Below, piece by piece: positions 21,956-27,469 of a stretch of 38,111 nt of DNA; position 1 is the stretch's first letter; each line of letters opens with the position of its first letter. The DNA comes from Altererythrobacter sp. (GTDB taxonomy: Bacteria; Pseudomonadota; Alphaproteobacteria; Sphingomonadales; Sphingomonadaceae). The notes beneath the pieces were generated by a model. That model made no database searches. It was given only the letters and a program-made list of their open reading frames with translations, and was not told where the DNA came from. The stretch covers positions 1-38,111 of the forward strand of contig JAJUJV010000008.1 of assembly GCA_029265155.1 (NCBI GenBank), read 5' to 3'. The position numbers were made by a program, and so were the translations under genes.

Positions 21956-22957
21956 GTGAAAGCCGTCACCTTCCAGGCCCTGCACACGCCGCTCGCATAC
22001 GAGAGCCTGCCTGATCCAACGCCGGCTGCGGATCAGGTCGTGATCAAGGTCGGTCGCTGCGGCATCTGCGGCAGCGACCTGCACATGACCGAGGATGCGA
22101 CTTACGGTTGCCAGCACGGCGACGTGCTCGGGCACGAGTTCGCAGGCGAAGTGGTCGCGCTCGGCCGCGAGGCTGAAGGCCTGAAATCCGGCGATCTCGT
22201 CTCAGTCATCCCGCTGATGAGCTGCGGTCACTGCGAGCACTGCCGGAAGGGCGAGGTACAGTGGTGCTCCGACTTCGGCCTGCAGGGCGGCGGCTATGCC
22301 GAGTACGCGCTGACGCGGCCCAACCAGTGCATCCGCCTGCCGCAAGATGTCAGCCTGGCCGATGGCGCGATCATCGAGCCGCTGGCGGTTGCGCTCCACG
22401 GGGTGAACCTCTCCGGCATGCAACCCGGCGACAAAGTGCTCGTCCTCGGTGCGGGTCCGATCGGGCTCGCCGTCGCCTTCTGGGCTCGCCGCTTCGGGGC
22501 TTCCAAAGTCGCGGTGCAGGACGTTGCCGAGTTCCAGCGCCAACGGGCGCTCGGCATGGGCGCCGACGTCTTCGTGGTCGACCCGCAGGACCCGATCGGC
22601 AGCGCCGAAGCGGGGCTCGGCGGCAAAGCGGACGTGGTGTTCGAGTGCGTCGGCATTCCGGGCCTGATCGACCAGGCCGTGCAGCAGGTCCGCAATCGCG
22701 GCACAATCTTGCTGCTCGGCCTCTGCACCCGGCCCGATCCGATCAACAGCTTCGCGATGCTGCAGAAGGAAGCGCGGCTGGTGACCAGCGCGTTCTTCAC
22801 GCGCCAGGAGTACGAAGCGGCGCTCGACGCGCTGGCGCAGGGGGCAATGGAGCCGCGGCTGCTTGTCACCGACACCATCTCACTGGCCGATACACCCGAG
22901 GTGTTCGAAAGCCTCAAGCGCCGGACCAGCCAGTGCAAGGTGCTGATCGCGCCTTAG
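21956..22957 (+). CDS. Zinc-binding medium-chain dehydrogenase (threonine/sorbitol dehydrogenase-like)
   Basis: 333 residues starting at GTG 21956. GGAG lies 7 bases upstream, inside the end of the previous gene, while the nearby ATG 21951 hits a stop at once. Catalytic zinc: 'GRCGICGSDLHMTED' and 'VLGHEFAGEVVALG', with Glu in 'IIEPLAVALHGVN'. The structural zinc set is 'SCGHCEHCRKGEVQWC'. Rossmann motif 'VLVLGAGPIGLAVAFWAR'. The CGSD + EPLAV pattern places it with polyol / L-threonine / 2,3-butanediol-type dehydrogenases rather than with the benzyl-alcohol type next door, so the two dehydrogenases probably act on different hydroxyls. The stop overlaps the convergent ModE-like gene by 4 bases, ending the cluster. 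Confidence 0.87.
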   Translation: MKAVTFQALHTPLAYESLPDPTPAADQVVIKVGRCGICGSDLHMTEDATYGCQHGDVLGHEFAGEVVALGREAEGLKSGDLVSVIPLMSCGHCEHCRKGEVQWCSDFGLQGGGYAEYALTRPNQCIRLPQDVSLADGAIIEPLAVALHGVNLSGMQPGDKVLVLGAGPIGLAVAFWARRFGASKVAVQDVAEFQRQRALGMGADVFVVDPQDPIGSAEAGLGGKADVVFECVGIPGLIDQAVQQVRNRGTILLLGLCTRPDPINSFAMLQKEARLVTSAFFTRQEYEAALDALAQGAMEPRLLVTDTISLADTPEVFESLKRRTSQCKVLIAP

Positions 22958-23316
22958 CTCGGCAGCGGCTCACTGCGGATCGCCCCCTCGAGCGCAGCAT
23001 AAGCCGCTCCGGCCGCGCTTTGCTCGATCTGACTGGATAAGGCGCGATAGGCGGCCAACGCCGCTTCGCCCTCCGGCGTCAGCCGAGCGCCGGCGCCCTG
23101 CCCACCCCCTGCTCTAGCCTTGACCAGCGGCGCCTCGAAGCAGCGGTTCATCGTGTCCACTAACAGCCACGCGCGGCGATAGCTCATGCCGAGCGCCCGT
23201 CCGGCGGCGGAAATCGAGCCTTCGCGCGCGATGGCGTCGAGCAGGTCGGCCTTGCCCGGCCCCATGGCGATCTCGTCGCCGCAGTAAAGTTGGATCTTGA
23301 GCTTGAGGCGGGCCAT
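22954..23316 (-). CDS. ModE-like winged helix-turn-helix regulator (no molybdate-binding domain)
   Basis: 120 residues. The N-terminal DNA-binding domain of ModE is clear: 'MGPGKADLLDAIAREGSISA' with 'AGRALGMSYRRAWLLVDTMN' (A-A-x-x-L-x-M-S-Y-R-x-A-W), then 'PLVKARAGGGQGAGARLTPE' and 'GEAALAAYRAL'. The two C-terminal MOP domains of full-length ModE (about 260 residues) are absent, so molybdate sensing must be different or missing; such short forms are frequent in Alphaproteobacteria. The window has other molybdenum genes (mocA, xdhC, a 2Fe-2S subunit), but none adjacent. Convergent with the alcohol dehydrogenase; 15 bases upstream of the phyR stop. Confidence 0.85.
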   Translation of the reverse strand: MARLKLKIQLYCGDEIAMGPGKADLLDAIAREGSISAAGRALGMSYRRAWLLVDTMNRCFEAPLVKARAGGGQGAGARLTPEGEAALAAYRALSSQIEQSAAGAAYAALEGAIRSEPLPS

Positions 23317-23331
23317 CGCCCACCTCGTAGC

Positions 23332-24126
23332 TCAGGACAGCGGGCGGCTGGAACCGAAGAACAGCGCCTGGCTAATCGCCGCGCGGACCGTGTCTTCCTG
23401 GAATGGCTTGGTGATCAGGTATGTCGGCTCCGGCCGGTCGCCTGTGAGCAGCCGCTCCGGATAAGCCGTGATGAAGATCACCGGCACGCTGTCGATGGCG
23501 AGGATGTCATCGACCGCGTCAAGCCCGGACGAGCCATCGGCCAGCTGGATGTCGGCCAGCACCAGGCCCGGGGTCTTCTCGGCGACGACCTGCTGGGCCT
23601 GGGTGCGCGTCGCGGCGGTGCCGCAGATCTCGTGGCCAAGCGAACGCACCAGATCCTCGAGCTGCATCGAGATCAGCGGCTCGTCCTCGATGATCAGGAC
23701 GCTGGTGGAGGACTCACGCTCGATCTCCTCGACCGCTTCGGTGACGAGCCGGTTCACGTCGTCCTCGTCCATGTCCATGATCCGCGCCGCTTCGGCGGGC
23801 GAGAAATCTTCGACGGTGGTGAGGAGCAAGGCTTGCCGGTTGACGGGCGTGATGCGGCGCAGATGATCCTGCGCGGCCGCTTCGTGCAAGCCGAAGGTCT
23901 CGGGCTCGTCCGCCACTTCCATGTAGGCGCTCGACCAGACCTTGTTGAAGGCGCGGTACAGCGGCACGCGGCCGCCGCGCAGGGAGGTAGCGAGTTCCTG
24001 ATCGGCTAGCGCCGCTTCCAGCGTGGCTTTGACGAAAGCATCGCCGGTCGACTGCGAACCCGTCAGGGCACGCGCATAGCGGCGGAGAAACGGCAGATGA
24101 GCGGCGACTTCGGCCCCAATAGACAT
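23332..24126 (-). CDS. phyR: PhyR, general stress response regulator (sigma-factor-like domain + receiver)
   Basis: 264 residues from ATG 24126 (GGAAGGGG just upstream; longer ORF-track start rejected). Residues 1-135 form an ECF sigma-factor mimic ('HLPFLRRYARALTGSQSTGD', region-4-like 'LTTVEDFSPAEAARIMDMDE'). Residues 140-264 are a receiver with acidic pocket 'SVLIIEDEPLISMQLEDLVR', phosphoacceptor Asp192 in 'LVLADIQLADGSSGLDAV', Thr220 in 'VIFITAYPERLL' and Lys240 in 'YLITKPFQEDTV'. Known mechanism: phosphorylated PhyR sequesters NepR and frees EcfG. Neither nepR nor ecfG is recognisable in the window. A perfect EcfG-type promoter lies just upstream, so positive autoregulation is expected. 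Confidence 0.94.
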   Translation of the reverse strand: MSIGAEVAAHLPFLRRYARALTGSQSTGDAFVKATLEAALADQELATSLRGGRVPLYRAFNKVWSSAYMEVADEPETFGLHEAAAQDHLRRITPVNRQALLLTTVEDFSPAEAARIMDMDEDDVNRLVTEAVEEIERESSTSVLIIEDEPLISMQLEDLVRSLGHEICGTAATRTQAQQVVAEKTPGLVLADIQLADGSSGLDAVDDILAIDSVPVIFITAYPERLLTGDRPEPTYLITKPFQEDTVRAAISQALFFGSSRPLS

Positions 24127-24154: not shown

Positions 24155-24181
24155 TCAACGTGCGCGGGCGAGTCTGGTTCC
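24155..24181 (-). promoter_or_regulatory. EcfG-type promoter of phyR (GGAAC-N16-CGTTGA)
   Basis: On the minus strand: GGAAC (24181-24177), a 16-base spacer, CGTTGA (24160-24155). This is an exact match to the alphaproteobacterial general-stress sigma consensus GGAAC-N16/17-CGTT. Predicted start of transcription near 24147 leaves a leader of about 20 bases containing the ribosome site. Confidence 0.85.
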
Positions 24182-24288: not shown

Positions 24289-24315
24289 GGAACACTTAAG
24301 CGGGCGGCTCATTGA
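24289..24315 (+). promoter_or_regulatory. EcfG-like promoter of the candidate sRNA (GGAAC-N16-CATTGA)
   Basis: Plus strand GGAAC (24289-24293), a 16-base spacer, CATTGA (24310-24315): one mismatch from CGTTGA. It points away from phyR, toward the hairpin and terminator at 24324-24409, with no open reading frame downstream that could be its target. Confidence 0.55.
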
Positions 24316-24320
24316 GAGGT

Positions 24321-24409
24321 TGTCACCGCCGAGACCCCCCCTCCCGTCCAAGCGGCTGGTGATACGATCCCGAAAGGCCTCCACTCAGGAATGAGTGGAG
24401 GCCTTTTTT
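24321..24409 (+). ncRNA. Candidate small RNA with GsrN-like architecture
   Basis: About 89 bases. Predicted start 6-8 bases after the EcfG-like -10. The 5' hairpin pairs CACCGCCG (24324-24331) with CGGCTGGTG (24353-24361) with a single bulge and presents a 21-base loop containing CCCCCCCTCCCGTCC. A short linker leads to an 11-bp perfect terminator stem and six T. A 5' hairpin with a C-rich loop followed by an intrinsic terminator, under general-stress sigma control, is the known plan of GsrN in Caulobacter. The C-rich loop could pair with purine-rich ribosome binding sites, including that of phyR itself (9 of 10 pairs with CGGGAAGGGG). Homology to GsrN is inferred from architecture and locus only; no alignment was made. 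Confidence 0.6.
24376..24409 (+). terminator. Strong intrinsic terminator
   Basis: GGCCTCCACTC - AGGAAT - GAGTGGAGGCC, an 11-bp perfect stem extended by AAA/TTT, followed by TTTTTTC on the plus strand. Read on the minus strand it is followed only by TTTCGGG, so it mainly ends plus-strand transcription; it might also serve the response-regulator gene from the other side. Confidence 0.85.
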
Positions 24410-24484
24410 CTTGCTGGCACGGTTGTTGGTGCTCCGCGCAGGAGACCAGTTCAGCGGAGAAATCGTGGGCTGCTTCCGGAAAGC

Positions 24485-24916
24485 TCAGGAAATAACGTCG
24501 CGAAGCCGGGCGAACAGGCCGGGCTTCGCGTCACCCGCCAGCACTTCTGCCAGTTGCGCCGGATCATAAGGCTTCTCGAAGATCGGGCCGAACTCGCCAA
24601 TCTCCGGAGGGATTTCCTCGGGCGAGCCGGTGGAGAACACGATGCGCGGCCGCTTCGGCCCCAGCAGGTCGACCAGTTCGGCGAGCGCCCAGCCGTCGTC
24701 GCGGTCGGCAAGATGAACATCGAGTACGACCGCGTCCGACTCGCCTTCTTCCAAGGCGAGCATCGTCTCGGCAATGCTGGGGCAGAGCACCACTTCCGCC
24801 GCGCCGGCATCGAGCAATGCCGACTGGAGCGCGACCGCCTGGAGAGGATCATCTTCCACGACGAGCACTCGTCCGAGCTTGCTCTTCCCTTTGCTGGACT
24901 GCTTGGCGCGACGCAT
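24485..24916 (-). CDS. Single-domain response regulator (stand-alone receiver)
   Basis: 143 residues with a basic N-terminal extension (MRRAKQSSKGKSK), then a receiver domain only: acidic pocket 'RVLVVEDDPLQAVAL', phosphoacceptor Asp66 in 'DAVVLDVHLADRDDGWALAE', switch Ser/Thr in 'RPRIVFSTGSPEEIP' and Lys115 in 'PIFEKPYDPAQL'. The 'P-R-I-V-F-S-T-G' segment resembles the FAT GUY class of single-domain receivers (such as SdrG of Sphingomonas) that feed phosphate to or from PhyR. No output domain, so it acts through protein contacts. A perfect GGAAC-N17-CGTTGA promoter upstream and the phyR neighbourhood put it in the general stress response with good confidence; the exact role is inference. Confidence 0.88.
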   Translation of the reverse strand: MRRAKQSSKGKSKLGRVLVVEDDPLQAVALQSALLDAGAAEVVLCPSIAETMLALEEGESDAVVLDVHLADRDDGWALAELVDLLGPKRPRIVFSTGSPEEIPPEIGEFGPIFEKPYDPAQLAEVLAGDAKPGLFARLRDVIS

Positions 24917-24953
24917 CTCGATTCCCGACGGCGGTCACTCCCCGCCTCGCCGA

Positions 24954-24981
24954 TCAACGGGATCGAGCACCGGTGGGTTCC
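24954..24981 (-). promoter_or_regulatory. EcfG-type promoter of the single-domain response regulator (GGAAC-N17-CGTTGA)
   Basis: Minus strand GGAAC (24981-24977), 17-base spacer, CGTTGA (24959-24954); 38 bases from the -10 to the ATG at 24916. It lies in the 87-base gap after the GNAT-like gene and matches the phyR promoter in both boxes. Confidence 0.83.
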
Positions 24982-25003: not shown

Positions 25004-26155
25004 CTACAGGTCCTTGGAATAAATGCGGTACTCGCGGTTTACTTTGCTGCCGATGGCGTCGGCGATGGCCAGCATTCCCTGATTGTCGTCCAGGATCCAG
25101 CCGACCTCCGCCCGCTGTGCGCCGTGCTTTTCGGCCCCGACGCGGCGGATGTACTCGATCATCATGAAAGCGAGCTGGCTGGCAAGGCGGCTGGCTTGGA
25201 GCTTGCGCACCACGCCCATCAGCGGCACCCGGAAATCGACTGGGCGCATCTTGCGCAGCCACCACAGCAGCTTGATCCAGTTGAACGGAAACAGCCGCCC
25301 GCCCATCGACTTCAACACCGCGTTGGCATTGGGCAACGCCAGCATGAACGCCACCGGTTCGCCATCCAACTCGGCTATCAGATTAGCGTCTTCGATGATC
25401 AGCGGGGCCAGCTTCTTGGCCCCGTAGGCCTTTTCCGCTTCGGTGAAAGGCACGAAACCCCAGTTGTTCGACCAGGCATCGTTGAGAATATCGATGATGA
25501 TCGCCGCGTCGCGCTCGAACTGCCGCTTGTCGACCGGCCGAATCCGGATTCGCTCGTTCTTCTCACCGGAGGCAACGATGCGGTTGATCAGTGGCGGGAA
25601 GCCTTTGTCGACCGCCAGATCGTAAGTGAGCAGCCGCTTGGCGACCGTGTAGCCGGCGCTTTCGACCCACCCTTCGTATTCGGGGCGATGATGGCCCATC
25701 ATCACCATGGGCGCGTGGTCGTGCCCCTTCACCAGGAGACCGGGCTCGTCCCAGACGGACAGGCTGATGGGAGCCAGCACGCGCGTCATTCCTTGCTCGC
25801 GCAGCCAGGCTTCGGCGCGGGCGATCAGCGCCTCGGCAACTCCCGCGTCCTCGGCCTCCAACAGCCCCCAGTTACCGGTGCCAGGGCCCATGCCCTGCTC
25901 CACCGGTTGAGCCAGGGCGAGTTCGTCATAATGGGCTGAAATACGCCCGACGACGCGCCCGTTGCGCCGGGCCAGGAACAACTGGACTTTGGCATGCTCG
26001 TAAAACGGGTTCTTGCCCGGCGTCAGCAGCTCTACGACGTCGCTGCGCAGGGGCGGCACCCAGTGCGGATCGGCTGCGTTGATGCGATAAGCGAGATCGA
26101 CGAACGCGTTGAAATCGCGTTTGCCCGAAACGGGCTCAACCGAGACAGCCGTCAT
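25004..26155 (-). CDS. GNAT-like acyltransferase, possible ceramide synthase (bCerS-like)
   Basis: 383 residues. The opening 'FVDLAYRINAADPHWVPPLR' with 'KNPFYEHAKVQLFLARRNGR' and 'VVGRISAHYDEL' is a partial GNAT acyl-CoA fold. The centre has 'LAPISLSVWDEPGLLVKGHD' and 'NDAWSNNWGFVPFTEAEKAY'. The C-terminus repeats a GNAT-like half ('ANLIAELDGEPVAFMLALPN', 'AEVGWILDDNQGMLAIADAI'). Proteins of this double-GNAT type are widespread and usually unnamed. Bacterial ceramide synthase of Caulobacter is also a GNAT-type N-acyltransferase, and the operon partner here is a fatty-acid hydroxylase, so an N-acyl transfer in sphingolipid synthesis is a reasonable hypothesis, not shown. It starts 24 bases after the hydroxylase stop. 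Confidence 0.68.
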   Translation of the reverse strand: MTAVSVEPVSGKRDFNAFVDLAYRINAADPHWVPPLRSDVVELLTPGKNPFYEHAKVQLFLARRNGRVVGRISAHYDELALAQPVEQGMGPGTGNWGLLEAEDAGVAEALIARAEAWLREQGMTRVLAPISLSVWDEPGLLVKGHDHAPMVMMGHHRPEYEGWVESAGYTVAKRLLTYDLAVDKGFPPLINRIVASGEKNERIRIRPVDKRQFERDAAIIIDILNDAWSNNWGFVPFTEAEKAYGAKKLAPLIIEDANLIAELDGEPVAFMLALPNANAVLKSMGGRLFPFNWIKLLWWLRKMRPVDFRVPLMGVVRKLQASRLASQLAFMMIEYIRRVGAEKHGAQRAEVGWILDDNQGMLAIADAIGSKVNREYRIYSKDL

Positions 26156-27220: not shown

Positions 27221-27469
27221 TTACTGAGCCGGAGCCGGCTCGGCAGCAGCGGCGTCGGCAGCAGCGGCATCGGCGTCCGCAGCAGCGGCGTCGGTGGCGT
27301 CGGCGGCAGCAGCGTCGACCGCGGCGGTGTCTTCGGCGATCGGCTCGATCGGAGCGACTTCTTCAACCACGGCGGTGTCTTCGACCGGCGCTTCTTCAGC
27401 GGCGTCGCCGCAAGCGGAAAGAGCGAGCAGAGCGGTGGCCGAGAAGGCAGCCAGAGCAATCTTCTTCAT
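27221..27469 (-). CDS. Small Ala/Asp/Glu-rich lipoprotein
   Basis: 82 residues. Signal peptide MKKIALAAFSATALLALSAC with lipobox L-S-A-C; the mature chain of about 63 residues is almost only A, D, E, V, P and T ('DAAEEAPVEDTAVVEEVAPI', 'AAADADAAAADAAAAEPAPA'), so it should be acidic and disordered. TTGGAGAAACTGAT provides the ribosome site, and a textbook terminator follows. Similar composition to the lipoprotein beside lipB, but without an ordered segment. These small proteins are common in sphingomonads, often abundant and of unknown role. Confidence 0.78.
   Translation of the reverse strand: MKKIALAAFSATALLALSACGDAAEEAPVEDTAVVEEVAPIEPIAEDTAAVDAAAADATDAAAADADAAAADAAAAEPAPAQ

Follow-up and report, generated by a model that had tools for sequence, protein, structure and literature searches.

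The window analysed here, a stretch of 38,111 nucleotides from an Altererythrobacter genome, encodes a single-domain response regulator receiver in the same orientation as phyR, with a small RNA (sRNA) on the opposite strand between the two genes and a GNAT-family gene on the other side of the receiver. The receiver gene had been predicted from sequence, and both the open reading frame and a match to the Response_reg model (PF00072, E 8.6e-9, above the Pfam cut-off) confirm a 143-residue receiver with the sequence features ascribed to it. Residue D66 is the predicted phosphorylation site, and T96 and K115 are also present. The catalytic residues E21, D22, D66, T96 and K115 do not vary in any of the 78 members of the receiver family. 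With these residues and the K-P pair retained, the receiver should be phosphorylatable. The family is recognized by LDVHLADRDDGWA, by PRI[VI]FSTGxPxxIP (P90-R-I-V-F-S-T-G97 in the window receiver) and by a C-terminal tail, G-[LIF]-x-x-R-L-[RK], which reads GLFARLRDVIS in the window. Across the family this tail is amphipathic (mean moment 0.56 compared with 0.31 for shuffled sequences) with a mean charge of +2.4. The AlphaFold2 model of the receiver had a mean pLDDT of 83, with values below 50 in the tail.

Table 1. Features of the receiver locus and its surroundings, in window coordinates.
Feature	Position	Strand	Description and basis
ModE-like gene	22954-23316		Adjoins phyR
phyR	23332..24126	-	264 aa; ATG at 24126; NCBIfam PhyR model, 366.9 bits
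phyR promoter, EcfG-type	24157..24181	-	GGAAC-N16-CGTT; motif conserved in relatives
sRNA promoter, EcfG-type	24289..24313	+	GGAAC-N16-CATT; sequence and conservation
GsrN-like sRNA	24318..24410	+	C-rich 5' loop CCCCCCCUCCC, Rho-independent terminator; 5' end placed from the promoter
sRNA terminator hairpin	about 24371-24405	+	
Single-domain receiver	24485..24916	-	143 aa; ATG start, ORF
Receiver promoter, EcfG-type	24954..24981	-	GGAAC-N17-CGTTGA; GGAAC-N17-CGTT part at 24956-24981; conserved in relatives
GNAT-family protein	25004..26155	-	Found next to the receiver throughout; relatives lack an EcfG motif for this gene
Predicted lipoprotein	27221-27469	-	82 aa, Ala/Glu-rich, low complexity; signal ending LSAC

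Comparison of the receiver with proteins in the PDB returned SdrG (5ieb) as the top sequence match (E 1.5e-7), followed by 2msw (E 6e-7), which we take to be the LovR receiver of Erythrobacter litoralis. Lower-ranked matches included 2rdm, PhyR-type proteins and Sma0114. The top fold match of the receiver model was again 2msw (E 2.1e-7). Scores against the NCBIfam PhyR model NF006623 (36.5 bits, cut-off 240) and against PRK13435 (34.6 bits, cut-off 158) did not reach the thresholds.

Within the window's family, 30 genomes gave matches over 100 bits. The receiver was also present in 51 GTDB contigs, mostly from Croceibacterium, Altererythrobacter, Qipengyuania and other Erythrobacteraceae, together with Novosphingobium, and a plasmid search yielded a single weak Paracoccus match, giving no sign of plasmid spread. 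The GNAT gene lies upstream of the receiver in every such locus and the kept gene order is GNAT-receiver-(sRNA)-phyR; the predicted linkage to phyR holds in every locus for which the recovered DNA reaches far enough downstream. By eye, a CRP/FNR-type gene was seen inserted between the receiver and the sRNA or phyR in Qipengyuania and other genomes. Novosphingobium-type loci, eight of which were noted, contain a second small receiver next to phyR, in the interval between it and the first receiver; these additional receivers group in one clade (100/99) of their own, apart from the family of the window receiver. The receiver gene was absent from five relatives that retain the GNAT gene, the sRNA, phyR, the histidine kinase and ecfG. 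Since these relatives keep the locus without it, the receiver is an accessory tuner and not a required part of the PhyR core.

In relatives the receiver locus is linked to an HWE kinase gene as well as to nepR and ecfG; in loci such as L137 and L139, the GNAT gene, receiver and phyR are followed by a CHASE-HWE kinase gene in divergent orientation and then by nepR and ecfG. In the window's genus the nepR-ecfG-kinase group is located away from phyR, and in the window's genome it is found on contig C97 (locus L144) beside molybdate-transport genes. The locus is thus split in this genus, with phyR next to a ModE-like gene and the kinase-nepR-ecfG group next to molybdate-transport genes (L144, L145), which hints at a rearrangement through mod genes. 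The CHASE-domain HWE kinase was a constant neighbour of nepR-ecfG in all four of these loci. Its N-box and GFGT-type (G) box look intact by eye, and the possibility that it represents a degenerate PhyT was rejected for that reason. Pfam reported no separate HATPase model in this kinase; HWE ATPase domains frequently escape detection, and the absent match was not counted as evidence of degeneracy. The window's genome contains five HWE/HisKA2 kinase loci. A LOV histidine kinase was not found beside the receiver, whose neighbours are the GNAT gene, the sRNA or CRP-type gene, and phyR, the nearest kinase being the CHASE-HWE protein.

Within the window, GGAAC-N15-19-CGTT occurs twice compared with 1.18 matches expected by chance, so the window by itself gives the promoter no support. 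Orthologous loci of relatives were used for this reason. The strict motif GGAAC-N16/17-CGTT was present in the GNAT-receiver interval of 58 of 78 non-redundant loci, compared with 0.12 expected from dinucleotide shuffles; these loci are related and are not 78 independent draws, and the 16-17 nt spacers differ freely among them. Several of the 20 loci lacking the strict motif have GGAAC with CATT, GGTT or TGTT. The motif was likewise found upstream of phyR in 73/76 loci (0.12 expected), and in none of 70 control regions upstream of the GNAT gene. In the window, the CGTT element is separated from the receiver ATG by 39 nt. The receiver promoter is thus conserved and, judged by its motif, EcfG-type, as originally predicted, and transcription of the receiver would be EcfG-dependent.

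The sRNA was strongly conserved, being present in 71/76 loci, on the strand opposite to the receiver and phyR. Its loop contains seven C residues, its fold has a z-score of -5.2, and the consensus structure comprises the C-rich loop followed by a strong terminator in which compensatory changes are seen. In the same 71 loci a GGAAC box lies 40-42 nt ahead of the motif CCGAGACC, and in nearly all of them the box is followed by N16 and then C(A/G)TT. An Rfam search of the region returned nothing above the gathering score, and the candidate RF00489 (ctRNA_p42d) was rejected as only the terminator hairpin matched. The sRNA resembles GsrN of Caulobacter and may be described as GsrN-like; a gsrN-like gene was not apparent in Erythrobacter litoralis according to a published survey (PMC5869019). 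With conserved promoters and a conserved sRNA, the proposed stress module of three promoter-bearing units (receiver, sRNA and phyR) is real.

The original prediction likened the receiver to FAT GUY proteins, which include SdrG and MrrA and whose motif is PFxFATG[G/Y] (PMC5964349), a definition that goes back to Campagne 2016 as rendered in the papers citing it (PMC5964349, PMC9981736). This likeness stood in part. The P-R-x-V-F-S-T-G segment is present and retains F-x-T-G after beta-4. The aromatic residue of beta-5 (residue K-3) is missing, being I in the window receiver, V or I in 73 of 78 family members and aromatic in none. Furthermore, a very short alpha-4 is predicted in the AlphaFold2 model, where a helix between beta-4 and beta-5 covers residues 104-107 only. 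The lack of the beta-5 aromatic and a reduced alpha-4 are traits of SdrG and Sma0114 (PMC9981736). The motif itself did not carry over: PFxFATG[G/Y] was found in 0/78 members, as was G or Y at its last position, and the initial P and F are replaced mostly by R and I. Alignment with SdrG, suggested at the outset, places PFVFATGG in register with RIVFSTGS of the window receiver, with the P off by one. Only F, T and G of the motif are shared by the window receiver, which departs from it at P, F, A and G/Y.

Phylogenetic analysis was performed with 75 sequences, and resolution was poor because only 125 columns were available. In the best tree the receiver family forms one clade (97/94) outside the SdrG group, within a large group of PhyR, SdrG and HWE-associated receivers that a 99/95 branch separates from CheY-like receivers. 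Two alternative unions were put to AU tests and neither was rejected: p was 0.285 for a clade of the receiver and SdrG, and 0.14 for one of the receiver and CheY-like receivers. A simple SdrG ortholog finds no support in the motif or the best tree, although the AU test leaves room for one. Given the unmatched motif and the poorly resolved placement, the receiver was not classed as a FAT GUY protein; as far as this weakly resolved tree indicates, it represents its own clade among HWE-kinase receivers.

SdrG of Sphingomonas melonis Fr1 (PDB 5ieb/5iej; MrrA is the Caulobacter ortholog) is, like the receiver, a single-domain protein with an intact D/T/K site, and both SdrG/MrrA and the receiver combine the absent beta-5 aromatic, short alpha-4 and F-x-T-G with an association with the general stress response (GSR). 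Unlike SdrG, the receiver has a conserved EcfG-type promoter, a longer beta3-alpha3 loop (LADRDDGWA) and a conserved C-terminal tail, and is encoded in the phyR locus, whereas sdrG is not. LovR of Caulobacter is also a single-domain receiver and is controlled by the GSR sigma factor, as the receiver appears to be, and 2msw provides the closest fold; however, a LOV kinase is not adjacent to the receiver, the tree does not join the two, and contig C91 of the host encodes another, LovR-like receiver. The receiver domain of PhyR shares F-x-T-x-x-P after beta-4 and is among the best sequence relatives, but the receiver lacks the sigma-like domain and forms a separate clade. Sma0114 of S. meliloti (PDB 2lpm) is an HWE-kinase-associated receiver with a degenerate alpha-4; in contrast to the receiver it carries IFATGY and, as far as known, is not encoded in a GSR locus. 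The family of the receiver, present in Erythrobacteraceae and Novosphingobium, had not been named before. It belongs to a known kind, the single-domain receivers of the GSR, and the receiver is not a canonical FAT GUY protein.

Based on sequence and genomic context, the receiver probably acts as an EcfG-induced feedback receiver of the GSR that exchanges phosphoryl groups with the HWE kinases of the PhyR pathway. EcfG, freed by PhyR, would drive transcription of phyR, the GsrN-like sRNA and the receiver, each with a promoter of its own, within a single locus. On induction, the receiver would then exchange phosphoryl groups with HWE-family kinases feeding PhyR, of which the CHASE-HWE kinase encoded beside nepR-ecfG is among the most plausible partners, and would thereby adjust PhyR phosphorylation. 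This role is consistent with sequence and fold neighbours that are GSR receivers (SdrG 5ieb, 2msw, PhyR). Against it, gene neighbourhood does not prove partnership, the FAT GUY motif is unmatched, and nepR-ecfG and the kinase are on another contig in the window's genome. In Caulobacter, phosphate is passed on by MrrA to PhyK and PhyR, while LovR, which is under SigT control, drains it from MrrA through LovK (PMC5964349); SdrG of S. melonis relays Pak phosphate to PhyT and then PhyR (PMC5898713). A LovR-like sink or competitor is a serious possibility, held with somewhat less than even confidence, and a forward relay of the SdrG/MrrA type is rather doubtful. Of the two we favour the sink, because the receiver appears to be sigma-controlled and is absent from some relatives with an otherwise intact GSR locus. 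A further point against the proposed role concerns the adjacent CHASE-HWE kinase: unlike the degenerate PhyT described for S. melonis, it retains both the N box and the G box, so it is not an obvious phosphotransferase of that type for a relay.

It is conceivable, though not likely, that the receiver instead does the work of SdrG/MrrA in Erythrobacteraceae, replacing SdrG as a positive hub in the phosphorelay that joins HWE kinases to PhyR. In addition to the PDB match and the unrejected joint clade, the distributions are complementary among the sampled genomes: the receiver occurs in 30 and close SdrG orthologs in 13, with an overlap of 0 compared with 5.3 expected (hypergeometric p 4e-4, ignoring phylogeny). 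A single lineage split could produce the same pattern, however, and in many genomes the receiver is accompanied by others that are PFxFATG-like. The missing motif, the position outside the SdrG group and the absence of the receiver from several relatives likewise weigh against replacement. An output elsewhere, such as attachment, motility or the cell cycle, is a still less likely explanation, in which the GSR-regulated receiver would bind proteins through its basic tail and take no part in PhyR feedback. The family-wide amphipathic, positively charged tail is in keeping with such binding, and both SdrG and MrrA are known to influence motility as well as attachment or biofilm (PMC6599016, PMC5964349), but the tail is modelled with low confidence and a partner gene was not identified. 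It is highly improbable that the receiver is CheY-type or unrelated and merely adjoins phyR without sharing its pathway. The original prediction had named a chemotaxis-type placement as evidence against it; no such grouping appears in the best tree, although the AU test leaves a joint clade with CheY-like receivers unrejected, and conservation of promoter and gene order over about 78 loci points away from chance adjacency.

An extension of the EcfG-induced feedback role is put forward tentatively, in which a distinct EcfG-induced GSR receiver family stands in SdrG's place, docks to the membrane or a kinase by its tail, and constitutes a three-output feedback node together with PhyR and the GsrN-like sRNA. 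Receivers that link stress-sensing HWE kinases to PhyR, and the damping of the response, are known for few species. The receiver described here is a fixture of the GSR locus in dozens of species. It seems to be controlled by the sigma factor of the response itself and does not carry the canonical FAT GUY motif, and the co-located conserved sRNA is a GsrN-like candidate in a family where the survey found none for E. litoralis (PMC5869019). With this receiver family it can be tested in a simple way to what extent the FAT GUY motif is needed for the relay and sink logic seen with SdrG, MrrA and LovR.
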